Below are positions 15,681 to 38,673 of a stretch of 64,000 bases of DNA, in pieces; the stretch's first letter is position 1, and each line of letters opens with the position of its first letter. Below the pieces are notes generated by a model that was not told where the DNA came from, did no database searches, and saw only the letters and a program-made list of their open reading frames with translations. A program made the translations under genes and the position numbers. The stretch is from Hippasteria phrygiana (taxonomy: Eukaryota > Echinodermata > Asteroidea > Valvatida > Goniasteridae). The stretch spans positions 496,001 through 560,000 of the forward strand of contig JAZGUH010000728.1 in assembly GCA_037893225.1 (NCBI GenBank). The letters are read 5' to 3'.

Positions 15681-15758
15681 CCCAGGTTGGACGACGTCTT
15701 CATTGCATTACGACTGACGTCCAGGATACGAAGTTACCCGTATGATGCGAACAAATCA

Positions 15759-16379: not shown

Positions 16380-17430
16380 CTATAGAAATGGAAATCAATA
16401 ATTAAAGGGCAAGATGTGATTTTACATAGAGACACTGGACGTGGCACCCTTATTGAGGTCTTGCGTTTATAATTGTAACGTCTACTAGAAAGCAATAACT
16501 AGTTCAGTATCTTAGTTTCAAAACCAATCATATTTTTCTTACAAATCACAATTTTAATAACCAGAAATAAAAACAAGTCAAATATGCACATAAGCCAAAA
16601 AAGCTTTTAAGTAAAGTATAGAGACAAAATAATACAGGTTTAGATTTAGACAATAAAAAGTCAGTATAGCTGTAGGGGGTAACAGTCTTTAAAAGCAACG
16701 TTGGAGCAGTGTTTACGTCGATATTCTATTTTAAAACGACGAGGTTGACCTGTGTTTTTCGACACTCAAAATGAAACCAAAACATAATATTTTTTTTGTA
16801 CATATCATTGGTCTTGTTTTTTGTTTTTAATTGTGATTAATTGGGGTCCGATGTTTCTAAATAATCCACAGGCTGCGCCTTCGAAAACCTTTCAGAATTG
16901 CCACCTGGAAGTCGAGAGGTGTACAGAAGTGAAGTCAACATTGCCGGTCTTTCAGATGTCAGATGGAACGGGGAAGGACACCAGATCCGATAAGGGAGAC
17001 ATTTTTTACAGCGGTGGTACAGGCTCAGAAAAAACGGAGTTGCTGTCGTGGTAACTGGTGAAATTGCCAGTGGTGTACTGGGTTAAGGTTACAGAGCAAT
17101 CATCGACAGAATAATAGCTGTCAGAATTGGTGGGAAGCCTTTTAACACTGCTATAATCCAGCTATACGCCCCTACCTCTCAGCACAATGATGAGATACTT
17201 GAAAGATGTTATGACCAAGTGCAACAGACAATTAATCAAACTCTGGCTGTCAGGTAGAAATGTGTTGGCAATGTGTGTTGTGAAGCGATTAAGCATGATT
17301 CTGGACAGGATCTTACCAGCAATGACCAGCAGGGAGATTCCTTAGCCCAGGTTGGACGACGTCTTCATTGCATTACGACTGACGTCCAGGATACGAAGTT
17401 ACCCGTATGATGCGAAAAAAATGAGAACCG

Positions 17431-18499: not shown

Positions 18500-19420
18500 A
18501 TAACTCACTAACTAACGGAGAGACACGACGATTATTTTTTTGAGCTGCTGTCCGCAGCTAAAAACATTTAGGCCATAGGCCAAATACAGTGTTTAATCGA
18601 CCTACTTATAAAAACCGAGCCGTTATAATATGCGTTGTTTTTGCTCGAAGTTTGCTTTGGAATGGAGGAATAAAAATACAGTGCACGATCTCACCTTTTT
18701 CGCCGGCATCCGTATGGCTTGGCTCCGAGTATCACTTCAGGAATGGATAGGCTGCACTGGCGGACCGCCTCGCTACTTTAGGTCGCTCAGTTTTTATGTC
18801 ATACAGCCTCACACGTACGCGTGCACAGTACGTGAAAATGTACCGAAACTGTATCAAAATTTTGGCAAGGAGCCCAGATAAGCTGCTCAAACGAAGTATA
18901 CTGTACGTGATGTACTTAATTGGTGAACCGTTCGTGGTTTTTGGATACAAATACAACTCTATAGCTGATTTTTAAAAGTCAAGGTCTTTCTATTTTTCCC
19001 ACTTTAACATTATCTGGTTAATCTGAATTTGCCAAACAGCAGGTGGCCAGTCCATCCTCTATGGACACACACATACACCATGCGATGCACAATACACGTA
19101 TAATTAAGGATTTCCGTTGTTTGTGCACCAATTTCAACGATCAAAAAAATAATACATGGTTTCATTACTAGACATGAACAAATATGGCACTGGATATTAT
19201 ATTGATTGAAACAAATGTGTGCGTTTAGGCCACTCAAAAAGGATTTGGGCACATTTAGTGTGTCATTCAGTCAAGTGATCAATTGTTTCCTGCTGGTTGT
19301 GGCCATTTAACCTGTAATAGACTCCCCCAAGGGGATTAGATGTTGAGATGGAGAGAGTTCAAATCCCCAGGCTCCGGGAAATACTCTGGTTTTCTTCCAT
19401 GGCATGATTGATAACCTTTT
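18500..19420. other. Intron sequence, no gene recognised
   Basis: This lies between the direct repeats and the satellite-like region. Short open frames exist on both strands but show no domain or codon pattern I can support. Confidence 0.5.
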
Positions 19421-19424
19421 TTTA

Positions 19425-20519
19425 GCTGCTCCGGCGCGCAGCGCTGCGGAGCAGCTATTGTTTTCGATAAGATTGATTTTTTTGGCTTTTCCGACAACAA
19501 GTCGGAAAAGGCTTTGTTTTTGTTCTGATTTTTTTTTATATATCTTCTTATTTTAGTTCTATCCTAAATCCCATAGACTTTGTACACGAATTTTGTAACA
19601 GGCACTTTGGTCACTAAACAATCTCAGATCTTAATCAAACTTAACACAAACATAGACCCTAACCTGAAATTGTATACCGAAGAGTGACGTCATGATGACG
19701 TCATCACGTAATGTTTTATGAATTTTTGAATATTAAAAATCGTAACATTCTTTTCAATATATGTAGCGAACAAAACAAGATATTTTCAAAATTATTTTTG
19801 TTATAGCATTGGTATGTCTCAAAGATATGTCCTAAAAGGGAAACATTTTGTGACGTCATGATAACGTCATAAAAACCAAAACAATTGTTTAACGCATGTC
19901 AGGGTCGGTCCGAAAATAAAAATATATACATTGAATTTTTCTCTACCTAATTCCAAAATTTCATGATCGTGGCTCACTCAAGTAAGAAATAACAGCCATT
20001 TGAAAATTTAGACCAAATTCAATATAACAGAAAGGAATTCTGGGAAGCGTAGATAACCATGGCTAAAATGTGCATGCTGTTTATAAAAGGGGTTGATTTC
20101 TAGTCTTTTTTCAAGTCGCTAGACTATTGCCCATAGCATTTGTAAACGTTTTCTTTCTTACCAGCCACTTTGGCTACTTTTAAACTTGGCAGACACTTAC
20201 ACCAACCGCTCACAATGTGTGCCGAACTTTTACGTCATGTCATGATGACGTCATCACATGTCACGTGACGTCATGTTAAAGGTGCATTTTTCAAGGGCCC
20301 ATATCTAGAGAACGGTAGGTCCGATTGCATTCATACCTGGTATGTTGGTAGATCAGCTCATGTTATAGATAAAAATTGAGGTGACGTCATGATGACGTCA
20401 TCATACGATTTTATAGTAATGTTTAAGTTTTTCAATCTTTAAGTTTCTTAAAGCCATATCTCATCAACACAACATGCTAATTTCAAAATTCTTTTTGTAA
20501 TAGCTTTGTTAGCTCCTAT
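19425..20519. repeat. Satellite-like repeat region with paired TGACGTCA palindromes (left block)
   Basis: The block begins with a GC-rich hairpin (AGCTGCTCCG…CGGAGCAGCT at 19425-19453). It carries TGACGTCATGATGACGTCAT at 19685 and 20382, plus related variants at 19853 and 20232. Segments such as CCCATAGACTTTGTACACGA (19571) recur at 25782 and 26478. It is interrupted at 20520 by the TIR element and resumes at 25574. Confidence 0.8.
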
Positions 20520-20949
20520 TAGTCCATGGGCCAGACCAGATATCGGTACCACCTAAGGTGGCAAAACATTACGGGTGCCAAATGCTTTGTAGGATCGACC
20601 TAAGTACAAAAACATGTGATAGCACCTCCAAATGAGTAGCTTAGTCTCTTTTTTTCTTAGTTTTGTGTTTTGCCATTAAGTTACATTATAATAGCATTGT
20701 ATGTACATCCCTTAGCATATGGGTTGGGCTAGTATTAATTACGCTGTTATTGCACGTGATGTATGACAATAAAATAAAGACAGGCAGTTGGTGAACAATG
20801 AAACTTATGCCAGTAGTGCATGTTGATTGTTGCAATCAATTTTGTTTCGGGGGGGGGGGGGGGGGGGGGGGGGTGGTATGTTACAGTACTCTGGCTTGAC
20901 AACTTATAAATATCCAAATCAACAGAAACACTGTTGTGTAGTGCCTGTT

Positions 20950-21316
20950 AGTTGCCGAATTTCAAGCAAGTACTGTTTTTGTTTACATCTCCCAACTCGC
21001 CCATATGAACCGAACGAGATTCATCGACATTCTCAAACTGGCATCATCAATTGGGAGCAGTGTTTGTAAAGCCCTGGTTGGGTTTCATGCAATGACAGGT
21101 TGCGATACTGTAAGTGCTTTTGCAGGCCGTGGAAAGTTAAATGCATTACTTACTACTTACTTGGAATTTGGTTGGTATCCTCCAAAACATTCCATCAGGG
21201 GAATTTAAGTTTTGTCGCAAAGAGCATTCTTAAAGGAGTCTGGGTTGATGAGTTCCAATTTTCCAGTGTTCTTGGGAAAAATAAAGAAGCATATGTGTCA
21301 GTCCTGGCCTGGTGAA
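20950..21316 (+). pseudogene. Transposon-encoded protein fragment with GFHAMTGCDTVSAF motif
   Basis: The frame containing MNRTRFIDILKLASSIG reads on to LVGFHAMTGCDTVSAFAGRG. This resembles the XPG/FEN1-like module of many transposon-linked animal proteins. A frameshift near 21150 moves the homologous frame to one that reads VAKSILKGVWVDEFQFSSVL and stops at 21315. It is the upstream part of the protein whose cysteine-rich C terminus lies at 24290-24543. Confidence 0.65.
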
Positions 21317-21319
21317 GTT

Positions 21320-21454
21320 CAGTGGCGTATCCAGCTTTTTGTGCCAGAGAGGGCAAACAACGTCTGAACCGTCTTAAAACCGTCGCAAAAACACTATTTC
21401 CTTTTGTTTTTTATGATGCCCCCCCCCCCCCCCCCCCCCCTGGATACGCCACTG
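21320..21454. mobile_element. hAT-like MITE with 8-bp target duplication
   Basis: The ends CAGTGGCGTATCCAGC and CTGGATACGCCACTG are inverted. GTGAAGTT flanks both sides (21312-21319 and 21455-21462), the 8-bp duplication expected of hAT elements. The 135-bp body includes a run of about 20 C. Confidence 0.88.
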
Positions 21455-21499
21455 GTGAAGTTGGAACTGTCTATTGTGTCCTCGTAGTGATCTTCCAGT

Positions 21500-24285
21500 T
21501 TTTGGGGTGATGTATTCGGTATGATCAATGTCCATTAATCCATTCAGAATAAACAAAAGATGCGATACTGTTTTCTTCTTTCTTCCAAGGGTGTCCAATC
21601 AAGATCATTAATGATAGTAGAGATGATAGTGTCACGTCCATAGGTGTTTGAAACGAACCTTGCAGCTCTCTTCTGGACTTTTTTCTATTTCTTTAATGTT
21701 CTTTGAAGTGTGAGGGTGGTCCCACGCTACCGTAGCGTACGCGTAGTCAAGATGAGGTCGAACAAGGGTAAGGTACAGTCTCTCTTTGATGGAGGATGAA
21801 GTATGATGACAATTTCTTTTGATGAAATTAAGGATTTTTGTAGCCCTGGCAGATGCATGCTGGACTTGCTTGTTCCACCGGCGGTCTTTTTGGAGGACTA
21901 TTCCCAAATACTGACACTTGTCTGTTTCATCTAGCTGAACTCCCATCATGCTGTAAGATGTAGTTCCTGGTGATCTGTTTCTAGTGATGCGCATGGTTGT
22001 ACATTTCTTGGGATTAAATCTCATTCCCCAGGTCTCGGCCCAGTTTACCATGGTATCAAGATCTTTTTGAAGTACAAGGACGTCGTCTGGTGTCTGGATG
22101 GATCTATACACCAGACAATCATCGGCAAATAAACGGGTGGTACTGGAGACTTTTTGATGAACATCATTGATGTGAAGGAGGAAGAGATGGGGTACAAGAA
22201 CTTCCCTCGAGGAGCACCACTGAGAACAGGGATCCAGTTGGATTTTCTACCATTTACGATACGTTGGAACCTTTGGTAAGGACGATGGCAATCAATTTTT
22301 TGGTGTCAGAACGAATTCCATAGTAGTCCAGTTTTACAAGCAAGCGATGGTGTGGCATACCAAGTTTTTTTGCGAGGTCGTGGGTTGTCAAAATTAGTTG
22401 TGTTTCACAAGATCTAGCTTTTCTGAAGGCAGGCTGATTGTCTGCAAAGATGTTCCACTCAGAAAAATGTTTCATGAGGCTACTATCAATTATATGCTCA
22501 AGTAGTTTGCAACAAACACATGTTAAAGACACTGGTCTGTAGTTAGCTGGGTCTGTTGGTCCTTTTTTATAAATCGGGGTAATGTTTGCCATTCTCCAAT
22601 CTAATGGTAGATCCCCAGAATCAAGTGACTGTTGGAATATGTGGCAGAGTATATGTGAAATTTCGTCAGCAGCTATCATCAGAGCTTAATTTGGTACCTG
22701 GTCTGGGCCGATGGCTTTGGAGACATCAATATTTTGTAGCTACTTCTTTACACACTGTATTGTAACACTCACCATACTACTACACACGTAACAGTGATGG
22801 CAGTCATATCTGGATATGGACTTGATGGCATAGAAGGTATAGTTTATCTGGACTGCTATCTTCATGAGTGAAGACACTCTCAAACTGTTTGGAGAGAGCT
22901 TCTGCTTTCGCTTGATCTTCAGAATGCAACTTCCCATCCACTTTCAGTGTTTGGACTCCAGTGTTATCCTTCCTTCTTGATCGTATACCACCGCCAGAAG
23001 TCCTTGGGATTTTCAGATTCAAGTATGTTGTTGACATAGTGTCTGCGGGCACTTCTAATAACTTTGTCAACTGATTTCCTGACTTTTGTAAACTTTTCCC
23101 AGTCAGAGCTGGACCCAGACTGTTTTGCTTTGTTGAAGAATTTATATTTTTTACTGCAGAGTCTCTTGATTTTTGTTGAAAAGTATGGGGTGCGGTTACG
23201 ACCCCTAAATACTTTATGAGGAACATTCGAAGAGACAAGGCTACAGATGGAATCACGAAACCAAGTCCAGTTCTCCTCAACAGAGCAGTTGGAGGGATTT
23301 CTGTTAAGGAGAATATACGAGGAAGTGTGGATTCGTAATTTAAGAATTCACGAGGCGCGAAGCGCCGAGTGAATTCGTAAATTACGAATCCACACTTGCG
23401 AGTGTATTCTCCGACTTAAACCATTGCGTCAACAGAAGTACATGTATTGTCATTAACTATCCAGTTGAGTGAAGATGAAAAGGAATGCATATCTCGTATC
23501 GTGGCCATTAAGATACGTAATTTACATAAAGGAGTTTTTCTAGGCTCTTACGTAATCAAGCTCTGGATTAGGATTGAGGAAATGAATAACACTTTACTAA
23601 AGATTCGTAGTTCCGAATCCACACTTTTGGACCAGTATAACAGATTCGTAGTTCCGAATCCACACTTTGAACAATAGTGTGACGTCATAGCAATGGTTTA
23701 AATCAAAGTAATCATTTTGAAGAACAGCAGCTTTTTCTTTGAAGTCTTGTTCGTCCACTTTCTTCCACAAGGGAACTCTACGGGGTGGCTTTTGGCTAAG
23801 AACAGCTCTTTGTAGCAAGCTTAGCCTTAATGACGCAGTAATCACTAAGTCCAGCATAGGGCTGCACATCAGATATCAGCGATTAATAGCCCGTCAATAG
23901 TAGATCCAAAGTGTTCTCAGTACCATTGGTGTCACGTCTAGTCGGAAATGTAACAAGTTGGGACAGATGGTTGTCATTGATGACATTTATAAGAGTTTGC
24001 TAAAATTTCCTCCAGAGGCAGAGGTGGTATCACTCCATTCAATACCTGGTACATTAAAGTGACCACCAACGATGATAAAATGGTGACCGACAGATGTCAG
24101 TGGTCTTATTTATAGATTCATCGAGTCTTTCAATAGGCAAGGATATTGCATTTGGTGGACTGTAGAACCCGCCGATCAAGATAGACTGACCTGAAGCTGT
24201 TAAGAAAAGATCAGACTTACCAAGAGGCGTTTGGTGAGCTTGGACGCTCTTGGGAAGTATCACAGGAACTCTTTGGTGAGATGCA
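21500..24285 (-). pseudogene. CR1/jockey-like LINE, 5'-truncated and frameshifted
   Basis: Reading the minus strand from 24285: endonuclease pieces (SILIGGFYSPPNAISLPIER; GHFNVPGIEW; VPLWKKVDEQDF), then linker, then RT with ADEISHILCHIFQQSLDSGD, YKKGPTDPANYRPVSLT, and a C-terminal part with DLDTMVNWAETWGMRFN, CQYLGIVLQKDRRWN and YLTLVRPHLDYAYA. The catalytic YADD region is disrupted between 22254 and 22111. A foldback element interrupts it at 23300-23705. It separates the two halves of the TIR-element protein. Confidence 0.88.
23308..23705. mobile_element. Foldback element with near-perfect 44-bp palindrome, inserted in the LINE
   Basis: 23308-23351 and 23369-23412 are inverted copies (GGAGAATA…GAATTCAC) around the loop GAGGCGCGAAGCGCCGA, itself a hairpin. 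TTAAACCATTGC at 23416 is mirrored by GCAATGGTTTAA ending near 23701. GATTCGTAGTTCCGAATCCA is repeated at 23605 and 23642. The LINE's homology resumes on either side. Confidence 0.75.
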
Positions 24286-24289
24286 GATG

Positions 24290-24546
24290 TTTACTTGCTA
24301 AATGTAAGCTCCTGCCAGCCGCACCTCTCAGGTCAACCAACTACGTGACAAGCTGTGTTGGAACTGATGTCCTGCAACTGTGCGCGCTCTTGCAAGCTAC
24401 CAAACTGCACATGTCTTGCCAATGGACTGAAGTACACAGATATGTGTAAATTCCAAACATGTCACAAACTAGAAGGAAGTGGAGGATGAATTGGATGCTG
24501 AAGATGAACTAGATGATTCTGATGACGATGATGAAGATGAGGAGTA
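24290..24546 (+). pseudogene. C-terminal cysteine-rich fragment of the TIR-element protein
   Basis: The plus strand reads CNCARSCKLPNCTCLANGLK then YTDMCKFQTC, a cysteine-rich tail typical of TGCDT-containing transposon proteins. A frameshift later the sequence reads EDELDAEDELDDSDDDDEDE and ends at TAA 24544-24546. An acidic tail at the C terminus is consistent with one protein interrupted by the LINE. Confidence 0.6.
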
Positions 24547-25509
24547 ACGTGAGTGGACAGGCAGTCGATATACAGAAACAAAATGCTTTGTTGCCAACTT
24601 TCAATCTATTTTAGTAACCCTTCACTGTAGCTTTCACTTTTCATATACAATTTGCCTTACCATGCAGCTGACAATATGTACCACTGAAGAGGAGGTTATT
24701 TTGTAACTATTGATGTGAACAGGATGTTGTGTGGTCATAAAATTTGCTTTTATTTAGTTCCATATACGTGCACATTGACACATGGCTAATGATATGACTT
24801 ATTAATTACATCTAAGTAATACTCATCAAAGTATAGCGCCCTCTATAGACAGCTGCCATCACAATAAATTGTGTCATGTGAAGTTCATCATTATGTGAAG
24901 TATGGTTAGTTGATTCGAACAATTCTATCTATATCTTTGAAAGCATATTTAAGATATAGGCGATAAAACCAACATGTACACATGATGCTAATATAATTAT
25001 GAATACTATATGAATGATATACAGGCAGTTTATGTTACTCTGACAGGTGCTATAATGGCAATTTTTCCAAATTTTACTTTTTAAATAGTTAAAAGAGACC
25101 TAAACCAACACTTTTGAACTATTAATTAAGTTTGGTTTGTTTCACAGGGGACACAAACAAAATATGAATGCTTCAAACAATGTTTAGCCATCTGAAAAAC
25201 TTATTTATGAGTACATAAAATACGTCTACGAACAGCGCCCTCTAGATGTAATATATATTTTTACGAGAAGTCATTTTAAAAACCTATAGCTAAACAATAA
25301 TTTGACCAAGTTTCATCTTTATACAACAAAGCATAATGGTGTAATTGCGAATTAATCAATCGTATCCTAACCTAACTGCTAAGGATTTATGTCGTAAGCT
25401 CATTCTGACTGGGCTTAAAAAGTGGGCAATTACTACCACTAAGCTACCACCCTGGGATTGCTATCATATCAATTTATCATCCTTAGCCATAGACCTTTCA
25501 AAAAAATGT
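24547..25509. other. Non-coding 3' part of the 5-kb TIR element
   Basis: AT-rich sequence between the TAA and the right terminal repeat. The open frame at 25345-25596 crosses the element end and is not credible as a gene. Confidence 0.55.
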
Positions 25510-25573
25510 TATTGGATTTTGCCACCTCAGGTGGTACCAATAAGTGAAATTTTGGCCTCTGGCCCATGGACTA

Positions 25574-26840
25574 TATATTCTTTCACAAAAATGTGAAAAA
25601 TGTGTGACGTCATCAAGACGTCATCAAAAATGTGCTTTTTTGAAACACATAAGGGTACGTTTGATGGTCATAAAAATTGGTGGGTAGGTGGATAGTGCCA
25701 CCAGCATGTAAAATCCAAAGTGACGTCATGATGACGTCATCGGCTGATTTTCTATTAATTTTTTTGTTCTATCCCAAATCCCATAGACTTTGTACACGAA
25801 TTTTGTAAGTGGCACTTTGGTCACTAAACAACCTCAGATCTTAATCAGACTTAACACAAACAAAGACCCCAAGCTGAAAATGTATGCCGAAACGTGACGT
25901 CATGATGACGTCATCACGTGTCATGTGGCGTCATCTTAAAGGTGCATTTTTCAAGAGCCCATATCTAGAGAACGGTAGGTCCGATTGCATTCAAACCTGC
26001 TATGGTGGTAGACAAGTACGTGTTATAGATGAAAATTGAGGTGACGTCATCATGATGACGTCATCATACGATTTTATAGTAATTATTAAGTTTTTGGAAT
26101 CTTAAAGATTCTTAAAGCCATATCTCATCAACAGAACATGATAAATTCAAGATGACGTCAATCATACGATTTTATAATAATGTTTAAGTTTTTAACTTTA
26201 ACATTTGTTAAAGCCATATCTTGTCAACAGAACATGCTAAATTCAAAATTCTTTTTGTAATAGCTTTGTTAGCTCCTATATTCTTTCACATCAATTTGAA
26301 AAATGTGTGACGTCATCATGACGTCATATAAAATGTGTTTTTTTGAAACGCATATAAGGGTACGTCCGATCGTCAAAATAATTGCTGGATAGGTAGATAG
26401 TGCTACTAGCATGTAAAATCCAAAGTGACGTCATGATGACGTCATCGGCTGATTTTCTATGATTTTTTTAGTTCTATCCCATAGACTTTGTACACGAATT
26501 TTGTAAGAGCCACTTTGTTTACTAAACAATCTCAGATCTTAATCAGACTTAACACAAACATAGACCCTAAGCTGAAATTGTATGCCGAAGAGTGACGTCA
26601 TGATGACGTCATCGTGTGTAAAGTGACATAAACTGCTACGTTAAATTTTTTAGTTTGAATTTTAGGTCCTACTAACCTAAGGTCCTTATTACATTTACCA
26701 TACACATTCGCCGTATAAAAAATGACCCTAGTTGTTTCTTCACTTGATAATAATCAAGATGATATCCATTCAATAGTAAAAATAACGGAAAAGCCCTCTG
26801 TTCTGTGACCAACAGACACACAGAGCTCTAGTTTTGTTTT
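25574..26840. repeat. Satellite-like repeat region with paired TGACGTCA palindromes (right block)
   Basis: TGACGTCA pairs occur at 25603 (degenerate), 25721, 25895, 26041, 26308, 26425 and 26592. Repeated blocks include GTGACGTCATGATGACGTCA followed by TCGGCTGATTTTCTAT, and CCCATAGACTTTGTACACGA. The spacing is irregular, suggesting diverged higher-order repeats and not a clean array. Confidence 0.85.
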
Positions 26841-27664
26841 CTGCCATTTTTGCCATAGGTTTTGTACACAACTCCCTTTTCCACCTAATTTCATACTATT
26901 AAAGCTCGTATTGTCCCCTCGAGTTGTCACAACAAAGACCACATAGCGTAGATGGTCCTAAAGCAATGACGTCATGATGACGTCAGTAGTTTTCAAATTG
27001 TGGCCTCATGAATATTTAATTTTCGACGCTTGCAGGCTCAATATCTGAAAAACCAATAGAGATGTGAAGTTTATATCTATTGCAAAGTATTAGTTGGGCG
27101 GCAAAAATGTTTCTGTTTGAGTAAAATGTTCGTGACGTCATCATGACGTCATCTGGAGGCCATTAACTTAAAGCACAATTTTGCGTGTTTAGCAACCTCC
27201 TATGACAGCAAGCATAAGACAATTCATACATTGTATTTTGGTCGACCTTACTGCAAGCGGAAATGATCGTGGCTCATTCCAGTGTGAAATAAGGCCCATT
27301 TCAAAATTTAGCGAAAAGCAATAAGATAACATAAGAATTACCGTGGGTATTTTGTAGCGCGTTGTGAATTTATGTGCAGACTGATTTAGACTCGTAAACT
27401 GGTCCTTCCATTGTCCTTCGGACTTCTAATGCAGGATTTCGTGTGCGTTTTTCTCTCCGAGTATTTTCCCGTCTTTCAGCGTTTTTCGAGTGGCATTTTG
27501 CCCAATTTTTTTGCAGGGTTGGTTATTTACAGTTTGTAGACCACCCTGGTCATTTTTTTCGTTGATATTTTGGTATATCTGTTGAGTTTTTAGAGGGTTT
27601 AGGTGGTAGTTTTGGTTGCTGCTGTGGTGTATAAGTTCTACACACAGCAGCGTTTCTTTTGTTT

Positions 27665-28025
27665 GCACATAGGGCTTGTGGCAGTGCACAGCCCTACGTA
27701 GCCTTTGTTAAGCCTTTTTGTTCAGTGCACAGCCCCAGTCTTCGGTTACGTAAGCATCCGGAGTACTGTGTGGGCTGTGTTATTTCCTTTCAATAGGCGG
27801 GCACAGGTGTTGCCCTGCTTTCTTTTTTCAGCACTGTCAAGCTAGACAGTGCCTGTAAATACATATACGTATACATAGTCCTGTTCGCCTTGCTATCTGC
27901 AGTGAGATAGCAAGGTAGTTATTTTCTTTCGGCACCAATACAAGTGTTTATTGGTGCCATTTATATTATCCAAGTAGGATAATTATTTCGTCCAACCGGA
28001 CTAGGCAGCTGCTAGCCGGTTGTTT
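27665..28025 (+). promoter_or_regulatory. Hairpin array in the 5' UTR of the LINE, unit A
   Basis: Consecutive inverted repeats: AGGGCT/AGCCCT (27671/27690); CACAGCCC/GGGCTGTG (27728/27772) enclosing CTTCGG/CCGGAG; GGGCA/TGCCC (27799/27811); CACTGTC/GACAGTG (27832/27845); CCTTGCTATCT/AGATAGCAAGG (27888/27905); GGCACCAATA/TATTGGTGCC (27931/27949); ATTATCC/GGATAAT (27965/27977); CAACCGG-a-CTAG/CTAGCCGGTTG (27993/28012). Loops are 5-8 nt in most. The array stops about 60 nt before the ORF1 start. It is largely kept in unit C (36838-37197). A role in RNP assembly or translation is inference only. Confidence 0.8.
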
Positions 28026-28081
28026 TCCCTACCCCAGTTGGGTTAGTTTTTCTTTGCTTTTCTCTTCGCCTTTCTTTTGGA

Positions 28082-29521
28082 ATGCCCCAACAAGCATTCT
28101 CCCCCCGGCGCCTCCGAGCCTTCGAACTGAAAGTCGATGGCAAAGAGGCGCCTAGTGAAGTCTTCAAGGTCCTCCGAGAGGTCGGGGTAATCCCCAAAGA
28201 CCACTTGGAGGCCTTGCAACCTCTCCCTGGCGGCAGATTTGACGTCACTTTCAAATCTGCCGCATTAGCCCAACGTTTTGGGCCAGTTTTGGTAGAGCGT
28301 CCTGGTTGCCATGTATCATCTTTTGGCGCCGTGACGCTCGTAACAGTCAAGTTCGTGGAGGTGGACTTGGACGACAATGTCGTCCGGTCCATCCTCTCAC
28401 GCTTTGGGAAGGTTCAGAAGGGTAGGTTTCAAACCTACCCGGATGAGCCTTCCGTTTTTACTGGCACCCGGCAGTACCTCATGTCGGATGTCAAGTCCAT
28501 CCCCTCGGTTCTCCGCATCGGGAACCGCAACGCCTGGGTGTCCCACTTGGGACGGACCAGGACTTGTGCCCGATGCGGGGACCCTGGCCACACGGCCAAT
28601 AAATGTAACACCGTTAGGTGTTACAAGTGTTTGGAGGTGGGGCACACGTCCTCCGAGTGCCCCAACTCGGTTAAGTGTACATTTTGCAGGGGGGGGGGGG
28701 GGGGGGGGGTGGGGCACAACTTCCAGCGGTGCCCCAAATCCAACGCCACCAAAGTTAAGCCCACCAAACGGTGGGCTGATGTAGTGGTGCAGCAGCCAAC
28801 TTCTCCTGCACCACCCCTTAGTCAAGAGTCCTCTGCCGCGCCTGCACCCACATCTGCGGAAGCAGGCGTTTCGGAGGGCGCCTCGCCTGTTTCGTCCTCG
28901 TCTTCGGACGGGGACACTATTTCTGGGGACGACAGCCCTCAGACGTCCTCGTTTAAATTGCCTCGAGCGTCCTGCCTTGGATGTTCGGGGATTGTAGGTC
29001 CGTTTGAGGCGCGCTCCGAGTGGAATTGTTTCCACTGCGAGCGTGCCATCATTCGGACCACTAGTTTTAGCCTTGTCGGTTGCGCCGGGTGTACGGGCGT
29101 TAACTCGCAGCCAACTTTGGTCTGCGACGAGCCCGCGTGCCTGGGGGCCGCGACCGATAAGGTTAATCCCTTTGTTGTTCCGCGGGGAAGGAGGAAGAAG
29201 ACGAAGAGGGCTCGTCCCTCCTCAGATTCGGACTCCCCATCCTCCGGGTTAATTCCCCCGAAACGTTCTTCTGGGAAGCCCGTATCTAAACTGTCCGAAT
29301 CTTCGGACTCGGAAGAGGATAGACCCGGGAAGGAGATTCTTCCTCCCGTCTCACCTTTGTTTCCTTCTGTGGAGGTTATTCCTCCTAATAAACCTAGCCT
29401 GTCCGGCTCCTCGGGGTCCGGGGAGTCGGACATGGACGAGCAGGGTGGAGATGAGGACGCATTTTTGTCCTCGGCAGAATCTCCCCCTAGCCCAACCCCT
29501 GGGGCGGAATCGCCCACTTAG
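28082..29521 (+). CDS. LINE ORF1 protein (CCHC nucleocapsid-like), unit A, intact
   Basis: The ORF1 product of a Tx1/L1-type element is expected to bind the element RNA. The 479-residue frame begins MPQQAFSPRRLRAF. It has an RRM-like/gag N-terminal part (about 1-150) and three zinc knuckles at about 162-216: CARCGDPGHTANKC, CYKCLEVGHTSSEC, and a third whose Cys-His spacing is expanded by a glycine run from a 21-base G tract at 28689. A second cysteine-rich block follows (about 298-355: CLGC, CFHC, CAGC, CDEPAC), then a serine/acidic tail. The start is the first ATG after the hairpin array and agrees with unit C. The frame is intact, unlike unit C. Confidence 0.85.
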   Translation: MPQQAFSPRRLRAFELKVDGKEAPSEVFKVLREVGVIPKDHLEALQPLPGGRFDVTFKSAALAQRFGPVLVERPGCHVSSFGAVTLVTVKFVEVDLDDNVVRSILSRFGKVQKGRFQTYPDEPSVFTGTRQYLMSDVKSIPSVLRIGNRNAWVSHLGRTRTCARCGDPGHTANKCNTVRCYKCLEVGHTSSECPNSVKCTFCRGGGGGGVGHNFQRCPKSNATKVKPTKRWADVVVQQPTSPAPPLSQESSAAPAPTSAEAGVSEGASPVSSSSSDGDTISGDDSPQTSSFKLPRASCLGCSGIVGPFEARSEWNCFHCERAIIRTTSFSLVGCAGCTGVNSQPTLVCDEPACLGAATDKVNPFVVPRGRRKKTKRARPSSDSDSPSSGLIPPKRSSGKPVSKLSESSDSEEDRPGKEILPPVSPLFPSVEVIPPNKPSLSGSSGSGESDMDEQGGDEDAFLSSAESPPSPTPGAESPT

Positions 29522-29545
29522 ATTTTTGTATCCATAACTCACGAT

Positions 29546-32500
29546 ATGGTCGCCATTCTTACGCTTAATGTAAATGGCATGCGCGATCCCGTAAAGAGGA
29601 GACAAGTTTTTGAGTTGTGTGGAGATTACGATATTTCCTGTCTTCAGGAATGTCATATCTCCTCCAACTCCGATTTAGCTGCTTGGCAGGCAGAATAGAA
29701 GGGCAGGATGTTTGCCAGTTTTGGCACATCCACATCCTGTGGCACCATCATCCTTCTGCCTGCTAAAAGCCTCTGCGTTTTTTCTGATCCTTCCTTCGAT
29801 ACTGAGGGGAGGGTCGTTTCTGGTATTTTGCGTGGTCCTGGAAGCGGGCCGGGTGTGCGACTTTGCACAATTTATGCCCCCACCAATCCCAGGTCGCGCC
29901 GTCTCTTCTTTGCGGGATTAGGAACACACCTGACGGGTAACTTTCCCGTTGTCCTCACGGGAGATTTTAATTGTGTTTTTGATGTAGAGTTAGACCACCG
30001 AGGTTCCGATAACACACGTTGTGGAATCGGAGCCAAGGAGCTCGGACATCTACTTTCTGCTGTTTGTCTTCGAGACTGCTGGCGGTCTCTTAACCCGTCT
30101 GACTATTCTTACACCTGGCGCAATGCAGCGAACACATTTTCCAGCCGGCTAGACCGTATTTACGTGTCGGACCCGGTTGATGTTGTGTCTTGCCAGCATA
30201 AGCCCTGCTATTTTAGCGACCATGATTGTGTAGTTTTGGATTTTCCTTTACCGGAGAAAACACGTGTTGGTGGAGGTTTTTGGAAATGTAATGTTTCCGT
30301 CCTTGCCGACGCGGGTTTTCAACGGGAATTTCGTTGTGCTTATGCGGGTTGGCGGTCTCTCAAGGAGGGGTACGATAACGAGCTCCTCTGGTGGGAGGAC
30401 GTCAAATCCCGCATAAAGCGTTTTATTATTTCCTTTTCTTGTCGTTTGCCAAGAAAGAAGCGGAAGCGTAGGGAGTCACTTTTGTCTTCCCTGCGCTCCG
30501 TTACTTCTGATCTAGATGCCGGGAAGTGTGACGCTGCCACTCTTTCCCGGCATAACGAAATCAAGGAGGCCCTTCAAGAATTGGACGACTTCGAAGCGGA
30601 GGGTGCCCGGATCCGCTCGCGGGTCCGGGAACTCGAGGAAGGGGAGAAGCCGTCCAAATATTTTTTTCATCTGGAATCCTCCCAGGCTCAGAAGAAAATT
30701 ATTTCCTCCGTCCGTAACCCACGGGGTGACATTGTTACATCCTCCGGCGGAATTTCCACGGTATATCGAGAATTCTTTCTCGACCTTTTTACTGAAGAGC
30801 CTGTGGAGGTTGACTCCCAGGGACCTTTTCTTGACTCTTTGTCTACACTTGTAGATGAAGAGAGCCGCATTGACTTAGACAGTCCACTTGAATTGTCTGA
30901 GCTCGGTGCGGCCCTTCATAGCATGGCCAACGGTAAGACTCCCGGCGGGGACGGCCTGCCCAAGGAATTCTATGTGATTTTTTGGGACATGGTCGGTCCT
31001 GACGTTCTCGGGGTCTTCCGGTGTGCCTTTGCACTGATCCATTTAGGTGATTCCCAACGTTTCGGAGTCATCACACTTTTGGAGAAGGCTGGGGATCAGC
31101 TTGATCCCAAAAACAAGCGCCCCATCTCTCTCCTTAATGTGGATTATAAGATCCTGTCGAAGGCCTTGTGCCTCCGTTTGGGTAATGTTTTACCTGAAAT
31201 AGTAGGTCAATTTCAGACTTGTGGCGTCAAGGGGAGGTCCATCCATGATAATATCAGACTCCTTCGGGATCTGGTAGCATACGTGGATGGAAGGAACCTT
31301 GACTGCCTCGTTATTTCCCTAGACCAGCAGAAGGCCTTCGACAGGGTCAATTGGGATTTCCTTTTTATGGTCCTAGACCAATTTGGTTTTGGGCCGCATT
31401 TCCGGCACTGGATTAAACTGTTATACACAGATATATCCAGTGCAGTCTTGGTGAATGGGGTTGTTTCCGACCCTTTTTTAGTCACGAGGGGTGTAAGGCA
31501 AGGTTGCCCTCTCTCCCCTCTTCTATATGTCCTTTTTATCGAGCCTTTTGCTCAGACAGTCCTCAATGATCGCCGCGTGACTGGTTTGGCAATGCCCGGG
31601 GCCAACGGCTTGCAATGCAAAGTGTTGCAGTACGCTGACGACACGACCTGCATTGTAAGGGATTGCCAATCTCTCAGGCGGCTTTTTGGGATCATTGATG
31701 TTTTTTTCGCGTGCGAGCGGGTCTCGCTTAAATCTTGCCAAGTCGAAAGGCTTGGTCTTTGGCTCATGGCCCGATTGCCTTCCCGATCTGGTCCCTATTC
31801 AGTGGACCAACGACCCGATCAAGATCAACGGTGTCTGGGTTGGCAAGGGGGACATGGGCCCTTTTAATTGGAAAGCGCGGCTTCCCAAACTGCTGTCCTC
31901 TTTGGACAGCTGGAAAAGGGGGACGTTTTCCCTCTTAGGTAAGGTATTGCTGGTCAATACCTTAATTCTATCACCTTTGTTTTTTCTGGCTCCGGTTTAT
32001 CCACTTCCACTTGCAGTAGAGCGGACTATAAACCGAGCTATTTTTTCCTTCATTTGGTCGGGCAAGACTGAACTCGTCCGGAGGACAGTTCTTGTCCAGT
32101 CCCTAGCCAAGGGCGGGTTGGGTGTTACCAACCTCCGCGACAAATGTGACGCCTTTTTCGTTCTTGGGGTGAAGGCCTTGTTGGGCGATGGGGGCCCACC
32201 CTGGAGATTTTTTTCTCTCTACTGGGTGGCCTTGTCGCTTCGCCGGGTCTTTCCCCCGAATTGGTGGCGGAACGATGTTCCTCACGCTTTTTCGCCCACG
32301 GGCTATTATAAGCAGTTTTGCAAGCTGGTCTTGCTGGCTGTTGAGATTTCCCCGGACATTGATTGGGGGCCGGCATCGGTTCGCAGTCTTTGCGAACTTT
32401 TTGCGGGCCAACATCCCAACCAGCGTCCGGCTTGTGACGTTTCTGACACCGATCATATGTTTAACGTTTGTCATGCCTCCAATTTGAGCAACCGACTTCG

Positions 32501-32999
32501 GGACTTAAATTGGAGGATCGTTTGGGGGGCACTCAAGACTTCTCAACGTCTTCATCGCTGGGGTATAGGGAATGGCAAGTGCCCTCGGGTCGGCTGTGCC
32601 GCTCCCGAGTCACTTTATCATACCTTTTGGGACTGTTCTTTCGTTTATAATTTGTGGGCTTGGGTTGAGCATCTTGGATGTAAAGCACAAGCCCGACAAT
32701 TTTCTCTTACACGTTCCTGTGTTCTTTACGGGTCTGGTGTGGACACTAGCCCGGAGTCCCTTTTGATTTGGTTTATAATTTGCACGGTGAGGTGGCTGGT
32801 TTGGCGTTCGCGTTGCGAGACATTGTATGATGGATCCCGACAGGACGCCGACCAGGTACTTCTCCGTGTCAAGAGTTCAATTAAGGCACGGCTCCAAGCA
32901 GACTTTGCCCGGCTGGACCGGACAAAGTTTCGCACCACTTGGTGCGTGCGGGGAGCCGTCTGTACTGTCAGAGACGACCGATTGGTATTTCACCTTTGA
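29546..32999 (+). pseudogene. LINE ORF2 (endonuclease + reverse transcriptase), unit A, disrupted
   Basis: ORF2 nicks target DNA and reverse-transcribes the element. It starts at ATG 29546 (VAILTLNVNGMRDPVKR). A TAG at 29696-29698 truncates it at codon 51, where unit C has TGG. The same frame then continues to about 31705: endonuclease GDFNCVFDVEL and SDHDCVVLDF; RT LDQQKAFDRVNWDFLF, GVRQGCPLSPLLYVLF and catalytic QYADDTTCIVRD. One extra T in a T run near 31705 shifts the frame, and it is recovered in the frame ending 32999. The C terminus has a CPRVGCAAPESLYHTFWDC zinc-type motif. The element is not autonomous as read. Confidence 0.9.
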
Positions 33000-34390
33000 A
33001 GTCCCTTGACCGAGTCATTTTATGGAGCTTCTGTCTCCCGTCTTTTATCTGCTTGTTCTTATACGTCTTGTTTACTGCTTGTTCCTTGTGATATTTTAGT
33101 TCACCGTTTTGGTTGAAGACAGGGGGGGTCGTACCCCCTCATGGTAATGCATGGGTAGCGAGGCTACACTGTCTTCGTGTAATGTTCTTGTTTTGTGTTT
33201 GTTTTTTGGTGTTCCAATGTAGTCCGGGGTAGGGGGGCTCGAAGCCTCACGATTCTAGGTATAGCGTGGCTATCCTACCCCGGGGACTTTAGAAGTCCCC
33301 GAAACTTAAAAATAGGATTAGGATATAACGTATGGTGCGGGAAGTAGTCTAATTCATCCCGCACGTTAGGGCATATCTACCAATGTGTTGAGGGCAGCAG
33401 ACAACCTTAGCGGTTGCACAATTTGCACGAATGAGGTGGAATTTGGGGACTGTGCGAAAGTGTCTGAGCTGGAAATGTGTATAGCGCCCTCTCGTGACTA
33501 TGATTTCAGACAATTCCAACGTGATTACCGTTTTCAATTGTTTACCAAACTTAAAACCTCAGGTTAAACCCAATTTCCTAATCATCTGTGTGCCGTTCCA
33601 CGCGGCTGTGCGTAGATATAAGTGAGTACATTTATGAATGATTAATTTAGTATAATTTAGGGCTCATGATAGCTTGCCTAACATCTCAGTTTGTTAGATG
33701 AGTTAGTTGATTTCGGAAAATGTCTTATTTATCAGGCTAAATCTTGTTTTTCATGTCACCTCATAATTTATCCTACAAAATTAATACCATAATAAATAAA
33801 AGAATTACAACAACAAAACAATCACACATAAAAAAACAAACAGACAAACAACACAAACAACCTAACAAACAAATGAAACCACACCAATATGTTCCACGGC
33901 CTTCTCTTTCCTTCTTTTTATAAATAAGAAAGAGTGATTTCTCTTTTTCGTATCGGCTTCAAGCTGCAGAGTGGGGTTGAATCTTGGGATGTGCCCAGAC
34001 CATCATGTGTGATACATCCCGTGCCATACAACGTCACATTTAAGGTGCATTTTTCTAAGTCCTACATCTAGAGAACTACAGGTCCGATTTGGTTGAATCT
34101 CGGTATGTGCTCAGACCATCATGTGTGATAGATGAAAATTGAACTGACGAAATGATGACGTCATCACGTGTCATATGACGTCACATTCAACGTGGATTTT
34201 TCTAAGGCCTAAATCTACAGACCGACAGCTCTGAATGAGTTAAATATCGGTATGTGGCCACACTTTCACCTGAGCCATATTTACGTGTATGTGTGCTAGA
34301 ATATGGATTTATACGATGCACATCATAAACATCCTTGAGGAGCAGCTTTTTTCGTCATATTGACGAAAAACCTCTCGTTTTTTTTTTCTT
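33000..34390 (+). other. LINE unit A 3' region and satellite tail
   Basis: After ORF2 there is a 3' UTR with inverted GC-rich segments (GGGGTCGTACCCCCTC; CCGGGGTAGG…CCTACCCCGG). Next comes TAGGATTAGGATATAACG (33312) and an AT-rich tail with A/C-rich runs (33770-33880). Satellite units with TGACGTCA follow at 34030 and 34176, and then the terminal hairpin at about 34346-34370. No gene. Confidence 0.7.
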
Positions 34391-35997
34391 CTGCCATTTT
34401 TGCCATAGGTTTTGTACACAACTCCCTTTTCCACCTAATTTCATACTGTTAAAGCTCGTGTTGTCCCCTCGAGTTGTCACAACAAAGACCATATAGCGTA
34501 GATGGTCCTAAAGCAATGACGTCATGATGACGTCAGTAGTTTTCAAATTGTGGCCTCATGAATATTTAATTTTCCACGCTTGCAGGCTCAATATCTGAAA
34601 AACCAATCGAGATGTGAAGTTTATATCTATTGCAAAGTATTAGTTGGGCGGCAAAGATGTTTCTGTTTGAGTAAAATGTTCGTGACGTCATCATGACGTC
34701 ATCTGGAGGCCATTAACTCAAAGCACAATTGTGCGTGTTTAGCAACCTCCTATGACAGCAAGCATAAGACAATTCATACATTGTATTTTGGTCGACCTTA
34801 CTGCAAGCGGAAATGATCGTGGCTCATTCCAGTGTGAAATAAGGCCCATTTCAAAATTTAGCGAAAAGCAATAAGATAACATAAGAATTCTGGGAAGGCA
34901 GTAACCGTGGGTATTTTGCAGCGCGTTGTGAATTTATGTGCAGACTGATTTAGACTCGTAAACTGGTCCTTCCATTGTCCTTCGGACTTCTAATGTAGGA
35001 TTAGGATATAACGTATGGTGCGGGAAGTAGTCTAATTCATCCCGCACGTTAGGGCATATCTACCAATGTGTTGAGGGCAGCAGACAACCTTAGCGGTTGC
35101 AGAATTTCCAAGAATGAGGTGGAATTTAGATATTCTGCTAAAGTGTCTGAGCTGGAAATGTGTATAGCGCCATCTCGTGACTATAATTTCAGACAATTCC
35201 AACGTGATTAATGGTGCATTTTTTAAGGCCTACATCTACAGAATTACAGGTCCGATTGGGCTGAATTTCGGTATGTGCTAAGACCATGATGTGTGATAGA
35301 TGCAAACTAAACTGACGAAATTATGACGTCATCACGTGATATATGACGTCACATTAAAGGTGCATTTTTCTAAGGCCTAAATCTTTAGAACTACAGGTCC
35401 GATTGGGTTAAATCTCGGGATCTGCCCAGACCATCATGTGTTACACAGGAAAATTAAACTTACGTAATGACATCAGCGCGTGCCATATGACGTCACATTA
35501 AAGGTGCATTTTTCTAAGGCCTAAATCTTTAGAACTACAGGTCCGATTGGGTTAAATCTCGGGATGTGCCCAGACCATCATGTGTTACACAGGAAAATTA
35601 AACTGACGTAATGACATCAGTACGTGCCATATGACGTCACATTAAAGGTGCAATTTTCTAAAGCCCACATCTAGAGAACTATACCGATTGGATTGAATTT
35701 CGGGATGTGCCCAGACCATCATGTGTGATAGATGAAAATTGAACTGACGAAATGATGACGTCATCACGTGTCATATGACGTCACATTAAACTCGGATTTT
35801 TCTAAGGCCTAAATCTACAGACATACAGCTCCGATTGGGTTAAATATCGGGATGTGGCCACACTTTCACCTGAGCCATATTTTCTTGTATGTGTGCTAGA
35901 ATATGGATTTATACGATGCACATCATAAACTTCCTTGAGGAGCAGCTTTTTTCGTCATATTGACGAAAAACCTCTCGTTTATTTTATTTTTTTTCTT
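34391..35997 (+). mobile_element. Internally deleted LINE derivative, unit B, with satellite tail
   Basis: 34391-34998 matches the first 600 bp of unit A (5' UTR start). It then joins directly at TAGGATT to the 3' UTR sequence AGGATATAACGTATGGTGCG (equivalent to 33313 onward), so both ORFs and the hairpin array are missing. TAGGATT occurs at both parental breakpoints in the unit C sequence, giving a 7-nt microhomology. From about 35205 it carries satellite repeats and the terminal hairpin at 35947-35970. It is a non-autonomous derivative. Confidence 0.88.
35200..35850. repeat. 144-bp tandem satellite bearing TGACGTCA
   Basis: TGACGTCACATTAAA starts at 35344, 35488, 35632 and 35776, an exact 144-bp period. 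Each unit includes CTACAGGTCCGATTGGGTTA and CAGACCATCATGTG, and ends with a second CRE-like box or a degenerate one. Isolated units recur at 34030-34180 and 43085-43200. Confidence 0.9.
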
Positions 35998-36837
35998 CTG
36001 CCATTTTTGCCATAGGTTTTGTACACAACTCCCTTTTCCACCTAATTTCATACTGGTAAAGCTCGTGTTGTCCCCTCGAGTTGTCACAACAAAGACCATA
36101 TAGCGTAGATGGTCCTAAAGCAATGACGTCATGATGACGTCAGTAGTTTTCAAATTGTGGCCTCATGAATATTTAATTTTCCACGCTTGCAGGCTCAATA
36201 TCTGAAAAACCAATCGAGATGTGAAGTTTATATCTATTGCAAAGTATTAGTTGGGCGGCAAAAATGTTTCTGTTTGAGTAAAATGTTCGTGACGTCATCA
36301 TGACGTCATCTGGAGGCCATTAACTTAAAGCACAATGTTGCGTGTTTAGCAACCTCCTATGACAGCAAGCATAAGACAATTCATACATTGTATTTTGGTC
36401 GACCTTACTGCAAGCGGAAATGATCGTGGCTCATTCCAGTGTGAAATAAGGCCCATTTCAAAATTTAGCGAAAAGCAATAAGATAACATAAGAATTCTGG
36501 GAAGGCAGTAACCGTGGGTATTTTGTAGCGCGTTGTGAATTTATGTGCAGACTGATTTAGACTGGTAAACTGGTCCTTCCATTGTCCTTCGGACTTCTGA
36601 TGTAGGATTTCGTGTGCGTTTTTCTCTCCGAGTATTTTCCCGTCTTTCAGCGTTTTTCGAGTGGCATTTTGCCCAATTTTTTTGCAGGGTTGGTTATTTA
36701 CAGTTTGTAGACCACCCTGGTCATTCTTTTCGTTGATATTTTGGTATATCTGTTGAGTTTTTAGAGGGTTTAGGTGGTAGTTTTGGTTGCTGCTGTGGTG
36801 TATAAGTTCTACACGCAGCAGCGTTTCTTTTGTTTGC

Positions 36838-37197
36838 ACGTAGGGCTTGTGGCAGTGCACAGCCCTACGTAGCCTTTGTTAAGCCTTTTTTGTTCAGTGC
36901 ACAGCCCCCAGTCTTCGGTTACGTAAGCATCCGGAGTACTGTGTGGGCTGTGTTATTTCCTTTCAATAGGCGGGCACAGGTGTTGCCCTGCTTTCTTTTT
37001 TCAGCACTGTCAAGCTAGACAGTGCCTGTAAATACATATACATATACATAATCCTGTTCGCCTTGCTATCTGCAGTGAGATAGCAAGGTGGTTATTTTCT
37101 TTCGGCAGCAATACAAGTGTTTATTGGTGCCATTTGTATTATCCAAGTAGGATAATTTTATTCGTTTAACCGGTCCAGGCAGTTGCTAGCCGGTTGT
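36838..37197 (+). promoter_or_regulatory. Hairpin array in the 5' UTR of the LINE, unit C
   Basis: This is the counterpart of 27665-28025. CACTGTC/GACAGTG (37005/37018), CCTTGCTATCT/AGATAGCAAGG (37061/37078) and ATTATCC/GGATAAT are unchanged. GGCAGCAATA has one mismatch with its partner. The last hairpin keeps AACCGG/CCGGTT but loses the inner CTAG pair. Stems are mostly preserved. Confidence 0.75.
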
Positions 37198-37246
37198 TTT
37201 CCCTACCCCAGTTTTTCTTTGCTTTTCTCTTCGCCTTTCTTTTGGA

Positions 37247-38665
37247 ATGCCCCAACAAGCATTCTCCCCCCGGCGCCTCCGAGCCTTCGAACTGAAAGTC
37301 GATGGCAAAGAGGCGCCTAGTGAAGTCTTCAAGGTCCTCCGGGAGGTCGGGGTAATTCCCAAAGACCACTTGGAGGCCTTGCAACCTCTCCCTGGCGGCA
37401 GATTTGACGTCACTTTCAAATCTGCCGCATTAGCCCACCGTTTTGGGCCAGTTTTGGTAGAGCGTCCCGGTTGCCATGTATCATCTTTTGGCGCCGTGAC
37501 GCTCGTAACAGTCAAGTTCGTGGAGGTGGACTTGGACGACAATGTCGTCCATCCTCTCACGCTTTGGGAAGGTTCAGAAGGGTAGGTTTCAAACCTACCC
37601 GGATGAGCCTTCCGTTTTTACTGGCACCCGGCAGTATCTCATGTCGGATGTCAAGTCCATCCCCTCGGTTCTCCGCATCGGGAACCGCAACGCCTGGGTG
37701 TCCCACTTGGGACAGACCAGGACTTGTACCCGATGCGGGGACCCTGGCCACACGGCCAATAAATGTAATAAAGTTAGGTGTTACAAGTGTTTGGAGGTGG
37801 GGCACACGTCCTCCGAGTGCCCCAACTCAGTTAAGTGTACATTTTGCGGGAGGGTGGGGCACAACTTCCAGCGGTGCCCCAAATCCTACGCCACCAAAGT
37901 TAAGCCCACCAAACGGTGGGCTGATGTAGTGGTGCAGCAGCCAACTTCTCCTGCACCACCCCTTAGTCAAGAGCCCTCTGCCGCGCCTGCACCCACATCT
38001 GCGGAAGCAGGCGTTTCGGAGGGCGCCTCGCCTGTTTCGTCCTCGTCTTCGGACGGGGACACTATTTTGGGGGACGACAGCCCCCAGACGTCCTCTTTTA
38101 AGTTGCCTCGAGCGTCCTGCCTTGGATGTTCGGGGATTGTAGGTCCGTTTGAGGCGCGCTCCGAGTGGAATTGTTTCCACTGCGAGCGTGCCATCATTCG
38201 GACCACTAGTTTTAGCCTTGTCGGTTGCGCCGGGTGTACGGGCGTTAACTCGCAGCCAACTTTGGTCTGCGACAAGCCCGCGTGCCTGGGGGCCGCGACC
38301 GATAAGGTTAATCCCTTTGTAGTTCCGCGAGGAAGGAGGAAGAAGACGAAGAGGGCTCGTCCCTCCTCAGATTCGGACTCCCCATCCTCCGGGTTAATTC
38401 CCCCGAAACGTTCTTCTGGGAAGCCCGGATCTAAACTCTCCGAATCTTCGGACTCGGAAGAGGATAGACCCGGGAAGGAGATTCTTCCTCCCCTCTCACC
38501 TTTGTTTCCTTCTGTGGAGATTGTTCCTCTAATAAACCTAGCCTGTCCGGCTCCTCGGGGTCCGGGGAGTCGGACATGGACGAGCAGGGTGGAGATGAGG
38601 ACGCATTTTTGTCCTCGGCAGAATCTCCCCCTAGCCCAACCCCTGGGGCGGAATCGCCCACATAA
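37247..38665 (+). pseudogene. LINE ORF1, unit C, frameshifted
   Basis: It has the same start (MPQQAFSPRRLRAF) as unit A. A 4-bp deletion near 37548 shifts the frame, and a 1-bp deletion near 38527 shifts it again. The three zinc knuckles here are normal: CTRCGDPGHTANKC, CYKCLEVGHTSSEC, CTFCGRVGHNFQRC. This shows the ancestral spacing of the third knuckle that is expanded in unit A. The extra cysteine block (CLGC, CFHC, CAGC, CDKPAC) is conserved. Confidence 0.88.
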
Positions 38666-38673
38666 CTCACGAT

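Follow-up and report, generated by a model that had tools for sequence, protein, structure and literature searches.

The window (the whole 64-kb stretch of DNA analysed here) holds two copies of one LINE, copy 1 at 27439-33312 and copy 2 at 36610-42437, which are 96.5% identical across 7.3 kb with the flanks included. The features of copy 1, the leader of copy 2 and the host site between them are as follows:

27432-27438 (+): 5' target-site copy, CAGGATT in copy 1
27439-28081 (+): 5' UTR of LINE copy 1, 643 nt, no ATG
28047-28077 (+): pyrimidine-rich stretch upstream of the ORF1 start, found by eye
28082-29521 (+): ORF1, with predicted RRM-like domains and CCHC knuckles; coding RNA strongly folded
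29708-31867 (+): ORF2, endonuclease (EN) and reverse transcriptase (RT) part
31686-32999 (+): continuation of ORF2 in another frame, zf-RVT
33313-33319 (+): 3' target-site copy, TAGGATT
34996-35002 (+): host site without the LINE (empty site)
36610-37246 (+): 5' UTR of LINE copy 2, same hairpins

ORF1 of copy 1 also contains a run of about 20 G at 28690-28711, which is absent as such in copy 2 and is possibly due to slippage or an assembly artefact.

The insertion site can be read from the host repeat unit at 34382-35210. This unit lies between the two copies, carries no LINE and is a natural empty site with an uninterrupted AATGTAGGATTAGGATATAACG; (T/C)AGGATT stands at both ends of the element. 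Further loci were collected by a DNA search of the element's own genome (best 40 of 110 candidates scored), an ORF1 protein search of the genome (85 of 6026 candidates scored) and a second protein search (137 of 709 scored, many of them places already assigned); all copies and families compared come from this one genome. The loci fetched comprise at least three families: F1, which includes the window LINE, F2 (L031, L032, L035) and F3 (L061-L068). Fragments of F2 on contig C175 (L081-L083, which are partial, and L084, which matches the start of the leader only) were used for loop variants alone. One F3 copy (L062:906-1817) sits in a 5S rRNA gene array with five Rfam matches, the nearest of them to the LINE being partial. 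Probably the F3 LINE targets 5S rDNA.

The 30 F1 copies nearest to those of the window (L001-L030, the window's two included) all begin at the same (T/C)AGGATT. Upstream, 16 of them have one and the same site in the host repeat, and 14 follow right after the 3' end of another copy. These sites and the empty site in the window show that insertion is target-specific. Among the other 39 F1 loci fetched, 3 occupy the same host site, 20 lie at a different junction in a related host repeat, 8 stand behind another copy and 8 are left unclassified. The 20 loci at the second junction (L036, L041, L043 and 17 more) form a subfamily whose host repeat is related to window positions 19926-20130. Since F1 loci use two host junctions, the target site differs between subfamilies. 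Head-to-tail LINE arrays with a period of about 5867 bp were found at C75:323936-359651, C261:1556468-1592173 and C324:265841-295686, with TAGGATT between the copies at the array junctions read.

ORF2 is an EN-RT protein of the L1 superfamily: EN, RT and zf-RVT domains were found, and it scores 196 bits against human L1 ORF2p and 48 bits against R2. Few of the 120 protein matches listed carry the name of an organism, and those that do are Branchiostoma proteins; DNA relatives of the element were sought in viral contigs, and none was found there. Two proteins, P0002 (61% identity in ORF1) and P0005 (80% identity in ORF2), point to related families. A preliminary description of this DNA had called the LINE Tx1-type. 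Judged by its ORF features and target preference, the label fits: the L1-superfamily ORF2, the CCHC-bearing ORF1, the preferred target site and a sister family in a 5S rRNA gene array all agree with it. Tx1 is presented as a target-specific LINE of the L1 clade in PMC3747384, and Mutsu, of the Tx1 group, is reported in 5S rRNA genes in PMC3706591. The Tx1 group (Tx1, Mutsu, Keno, Dewa) resembles F1 in its L1-like ORF2, CCHC ORF1 and preferred target, and F3 in its 5S array resembles Mutsu.

The hairpin series of the leader

The preliminary description had counted about eight hairpins over some 350 nt. The run is borne out, but its true extent is longer: ten hairpins (H0-H4 and H6-H10) and one weak one, spanning 27618 to about 28042 and joined by U-rich linkers.

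27618-27651 (+): H0, loop TAAGTTC
27667-27699 (+): H1, inner loop GCAGTG
27728-27779 (+): H2, long stem, loop TTACGTAAGCAT
27799-27815 (+): H3, loop CAGGTGT; extended to GGGCAAA-GGTA-TTTGCCC in other copies
27831-27852 (+): H4, loop AAGCTA; AAAGTA in about half of the copies
27853-27880 (+): H5, weak AT-rich stem of variable length
27888-27915 (+): H6, 11-bp stem, loop GCAGTG
27931-27958 (+): H7, 10-bp stem, loop CAAGTGTT
27965-27983 (+): H8, loop AAGTA, first base A, G or T
27993-28022 (+): H9, one bulged A, loop GCAGCTG or GCAGTTG
28033-28042 (+): H10, short stem CCC-AGTT-GGG

Three stems had been named beforehand, and all are present: CCTTGCTATCT/AGATAGCAAGG at 27888-27915, GGCACCAATA/TATTGGTGCC at 27931-27958, and the CCGG(A)CTAG stem with one bulged A within 27993-28022. 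Perfection of the stems varies by copy, with a broken pair in H1 of copy 1 and in H7 of copy 2.

The leader is folded far more stably than expected by chance. The 361 nt at 27665-28025 have a minimum free energy (MFE) of -136.4 kcal/mol against -100.7 +/- 5.2 for 200 dinucleotide shuffles (z -6.9), that is about 36 kcal/mol lower, and the corresponding region of copy 2 (36835-37190) gives z -6.6, again with 200 dinucleotide shuffles. A lack of excess stability over shuffled sequence had been named as an outcome that would speak against a functional RNA; the excess is present in both copies. When pairs are limited to 64 nt (300 shuffles), the whole leader yields z -6.0 and -6.4 for the window copies and -7.6 for L043, a copy of the second-junction subfamily; the leader of F2 reaches -6.4 and that of F3 -3.3.

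A scan of the leader against Rfam returned no family at the gathering cut-off, the weak matches (E 0.12-0.99) lying far below the cut-offs. Iron-responsive elements have a CAGUGN hexaloop and a bulged C. The likeness of the GCAGUG loops of H1 and H6 to these elements was considered and rejected: H1 closes as GUG-GCAGUG-CAC, which is the wrong loop geometry, and there is no Rfam match.

Comparison of genomic copies shows that the structure is conserved. An alignment of 67 of the 69 F1 loci (L060 was left out and L076 was unanchored) gave 49 distinct leaders. Nucleotide diversity (pi) and gap fraction are 0.031 and 0.003 in stem columns, 0.061 and 0.053 in loop columns, and 0.132 and 0.116 in spacer columns; stems are thus about four times less variable than spacers, and gaps in them are very rare. 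The unpaired 4-fold degenerate sites of ORF1 served as an approximately neutral reference (pi 0.107-0.125, against 0.065-0.071 at paired ones; 39 copies, three reference folds). Set against spacers and these sites, leader stems change at about one quarter to one third of the least constrained rate, so the stems do not decay neutrally across copies, an outcome that had also been named as telling against function. Standard pairs occupy 95.5% of the 4578 leader stem cells; helix 6 as drawn includes one pair that does not form in any copy. Covariation, which the preliminary description had proposed as support, is not seen in the leader beyond shuffles: a two-sided change occurs in 1 of the 4578 cells, the same as in shuffles, and because the stems hardly change this comparison has no power and cannot decide. 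One-sided changes show G-U and A-C in ratios of 17:16 and 22:19 (all variants). Overall, the run of hairpins is real and appears to be selected, and the proposal that the 5' UTR of this LINE holds a functional RNA structure gains backing from the folding energy, from the conservation across copies and from a second family.

Loop motif, ORF1 protein and coding RNA

Most leader hairpins expose AGU (or AGC) in the apical loop. In minimum-energy folds (2000 shuffles) AGU is found in 6 of 14 loops of the F1 window leader, against a shuffled mean of 1.0 (P 0.0005), and in 4 of 13 loops of the F2 leader, against 0.62 (P 0.0015); the motif had first caught attention in a joint reading of F1 and F2, before testing, so neither P value is clean of hindsight. 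The leader of F3 has 0 of 6 in the same kind of fold; a hairpin TTGAGC-AAGTA-GCTCAG lies about 70 nt upstream of its ORF1. Copy 2 has 6 of 11 and L043 6 of 10 (300 shuffles, none of which reached either). Control stretches yield 0/12 in ORF1, 0/14 and 0/11 in ORF2, 0/5 in the 3' UTR and 1/9 in host DNA. Counting perfect stems only, F1 has 6 of 10 (0/1000 shuffles), F2 1 of 11 (P 0.42) and F3 no significant excess; the F2 excess becomes significant once imperfect stems are allowed. If every trinucleotide is admitted as a possible motif, P becomes 0.07 in F1 and 0.59 in F2. The sequence similarity between F1 and F2 leaders is not significant (best E 0.048). Shared AGU loops are thus supported for two families, with hindsight, and not for the third.

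Across the 49 distinct F1 leaders, AGU or AGCU is kept in 49 copies at H1 and H4, in 47 at H6 and in 48 at each of H7, H8, H9 and H10. H0 has AGU in 36 and has lost it in 13, H2 has AGC in 45 and AGU in 4, and H3 has neither. At H8, AGTA is constant in 48 of the 49 although the preceding base is A, G or T; at H7, a three-base deletion in 3 copies leaves CAGT. Taken over all loops the AGU/AGC triplet is not less variable than the remaining loop positions (pi 0.084 against 0.052), owing to variation at H0, H4 and H9; across the five constant loops (H1, H6, H7, H8 and H10) the AGT triplet has a pi of 0.014. The pattern suggests that a protein docks repeatedly on the AGU-tipped hairpins, perhaps the RNA-binding protein that the element itself encodes.

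We infer that ORF1p, encoded right behind the row of hairpins, is the natural candidate reader. A structural model (L043 residues 1-245, seven homologues, mean pLDDT 68) reaches block means of pLDDT 62-90 over residues 11-160 and shows two RRM-like domains, and all 50 PDB matches listed are RRM proteins (UP1 of hnRNP A1, HuR, SFPQ, NONO and others). Identities are 12-16%, TM-scores 0.23-0.29 by model length and rmsd about 10 A or more, so we claim the fold type only. The order of strands and helices in the model and the PDB matches indicate that two RRM-like domains precede the CCHC knuckles, of which Pfam finds one stretch and three were read by eye.

Folding excess is by no means confined to the leader. 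ORF1 is folded more strongly than the leader and lacks AGU loops; with an equal or larger excess there, the excess is not special to the leader. Against synonymous-codon shuffles, ORF1 (28082-29518; L043:1450-2874; L034) has z of about -9 to -15.5, with -15.5 and -13.7 in copies of F1 subfamilies, and F1 ORF2 parts have -4.8 to -7.7. These shuffles, which keep protein and codon use, give -10.0 and -10.4 for the two parts of the window ORF1 and -7.7 for the EN-RT part of ORF2. As controls we used F2, F3 and E. coli lacZ: z is -2.9 and -3.0 for F2 ORF1, -1.8 and -2.2 for the start of F3 ORF1, and -2.9 to 0.2 for four pieces of lacZ. Expressed as MFED, the values are 48% and 37% for the halves of F1 ORF1 (L043), 18-23% for F1 ORF2, 12% and 7% for F2 ORF1, 18% for the start of F2 ORF2 and -1% to 10% for lacZ. 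F2 ORF2 is at least as folded as the least folded part of F1 ORF2, so the gap between the families lies in ORF1. The coding RNA of F1 ORF1 is exceptionally folded. In three related subfamilies its sense strand exceeds the antisense in stability by more than shuffles do (z -2.6 to -2.9), and it includes a perfect 13-bp hairpin at 28230.

The ORF1 alignment covers 52 loci with 43 distinct rows, or 39 after L002, L003, L019 and L029 were left out. With five reference folds, one-sided stem changes run G-U to A-C at 39:27, 43:29, 46:26, 39:28 and 47:32 when all variants are counted; among changes common to at least 3 copies there is no G-U bias (8:11, 10:16, 8:10, 8:12 and 23:24). Two-sided changes in at least 3 copies keep pairing in 3, 5, 5, 3 and 9 cases against 1, 0, 0, 1 and 4 that do not. 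Selection at the RNA level on ORF1 is favoured, though not proven.

Candidate roles of the leader

The preliminary description had offered three roles for the hairpins: RNP packaging signal, internal ribosome entry and block to read-through. Packaging is the one we favour, as the AGU loops and the RNA-binding build of ORF1p speak for a candidate binding. The F1 leader would be an RNA element under selection, with about ten hairpins on U-rich linkers. The tandem RRM-like domains and CCHC knuckles of ORF1p would read the loop AG(U), and several ORF1p copies might load onto the leader of the RNA under translation and nucleate an RNP. Such loading would give cis preference and mark full-length RNA. 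That the hairpins are repeated ORF1p sites nucleating an RNP is a tentative proposal to which we give somewhat less than an even chance, the partner and the RNP role being its conjectural parts. A wider version is possible but more doubtful: F1 would be a Gag-like LINE whose ten or so AGU hairpins act as a multivalent 5' assembly signal for a two-RRM, CCHC ORF1p, while in one family order spreads transcript-wide with the protein sequence kept, making this one of the most folded coding RNAs known to us.

A serious rival, if on balance an unlikely one, is that selection acts on the whole transcript, favouring an RNA that is compact or that escapes small RNAs, nucleases or sensors, the leader being nothing special. 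The coding RNA argues for it: the z values and MFED of ORF1 and ORF2 stand out from lacZ, 4-fold sites vary less where paired, and the two-sided ORF1 changes in at least 3 copies mostly keep pairing. Such element-wide order would not explain why, among the stretches tested, AGU loops are limited to leaders except for the single one among nine host DNA loops. In F2, moreover, the leader is structured (z -6.4) yet ORF1 is near ordinary (z -2.9), so leader and ORF1 folding come apart. Control of translation, in which a long AUG-free structured leader is scanned, shunted or entered internally and sets ORF1 output, has a smaller probability still. In its favour, ATG does not occur between element start and ORF1 in the window copies, where the 650 and 644 nt tested would be expected to hold about 6.3-6.4 (P 0.0004-0.0006), and a pyrimidine-rich stretch precedes the start codon. 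Over the 570 nt upstream of ORF1 in 49 distinct F1 sequences (L004, L021, L027, L033 and L060 were excluded from this count), ATG is absent in 30, 15 have ATGTAA, a start codon with an immediate stop, and 4 have another ATG. In F2, L031 and L032 have no ATG in 640 nt, and L035, whose leader is internally deleted, has its ATGs beyond the remaining part. On the other side, an ATG stands at -115 in 7 of 8 F3 loci, and the leader matches no Rfam family at cut-off. Absence of AUG, or AUG-UAA as in 15 of the other 19 copies, fits a scanned leader better than an internal entry site, for which nothing specific was found, although stable stems would slow scanning. Internal ribosome entry is thus not favoured, and the leader looks like a scanned one.

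The hairpins might also be a by-product of reverse transcription, with template switching perfecting imperfect inverted repeats so that hairpins pile up without function. We regard this as improbable. The element does contain 44 inverted repeats in 5871 nt, nearly pure in Watson-Crick pairs (392, with 6 G-T, 3 A-C and 6 other), in coding and non-coding parts alike, and 16 of them fall in ORF1, where five shuffles give 1-5. The host stretch 19001-26800 holds 40 as well, many of them TGACGTCA palindromes, so the element is not set apart by its density of repeats alone; F2 has few (2 in the leader, 5 in ORF1). Nor would a by-product predict the AGU loops, the low gap rate, the slow stems and slow paired synonymous sites, or the sense-strand excess. 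Least probable of all, and very much so, is a read-through block or insulator between head-to-tail copies. Arrays with the period given above exist, and 22 of the 69 F1 loci lie directly behind another copy (14 in L001-L030, 8 in the other 39); but the hairpins start some 180 nt or more into the leader, no terminator logic is seen, and copies behind host DNA have the same leader.

Several known systems come close to what is described here. Retroviral packaging signals are rows of stem-loops bound by the CCHC knuckles of nucleocapsid. The F1 leader resembles them in its stem-loops before the first gene, the exposed G in the loops and a CCHC protein encoded downstream; unlike them it has no retroviral homology, and its binding is predicted. 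Tandem-RRM proteins such as hnRNP A1, which prefers AG, share with the ORF1p model a two-RRM fold and AG-containing sites, but the match is one of distant fold only, at the identity, TM-score and rmsd reported above. RNA viruses have ordered RNA structure on the scale of the genome, with folding excess through coding RNA. F1 has such an excess as well but is a LINE, and its ORF1 MFED of 37-48% lies above the viral values familiar to us. According to PMC4176376, in the zebrafish LINEs ZfL2-1 and ZfL2-2 a LINE protein recognises the loop of a 3'-tail stem-loop in its own RNA, which is a precedent for loop-specific reading of the kind proposed here. There, one hairpin at the 3' end is read by the region between EN and RT, whereas F1 has about ten at the 5' end.

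The preliminary description knew of no LINE 5' UTR with such a series. In the open-licence literature we likewise found no description of a hairpin series in a LINE leader, for the Tx1 group or otherwise, or of ordered RNA in retrotransposons, although absence from print is not established thereby. It is still an open question by what means LINE proteins select their own RNA (cis preference); for some LINEs, 3'-tail loops provide one answer. A 5' signal that is repeated and loop-specific, next to a compact RNA-binding ORF1p, would open cis preference to direct tests in vitro. The codon-preserving folding excess of F1 ORF1 raises a further question, namely what selects for a coding RNA made up almost entirely of hairpins in F1 when its sister family F2, in the same genome, lacks one.

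Elsewhere in the window, four tRNA matches (9968-10040, 48344-48416, 53200-53272 and 56403-56476) lie in repeated units about 100-150 bp long and may be tRNA genes or belong to a tRNA-derived SINE. A direct duplication of 1.5 kb (12541-14058 and 15756-17243) has 97.6% identity and is adjoined by a further 181-bp repeat.
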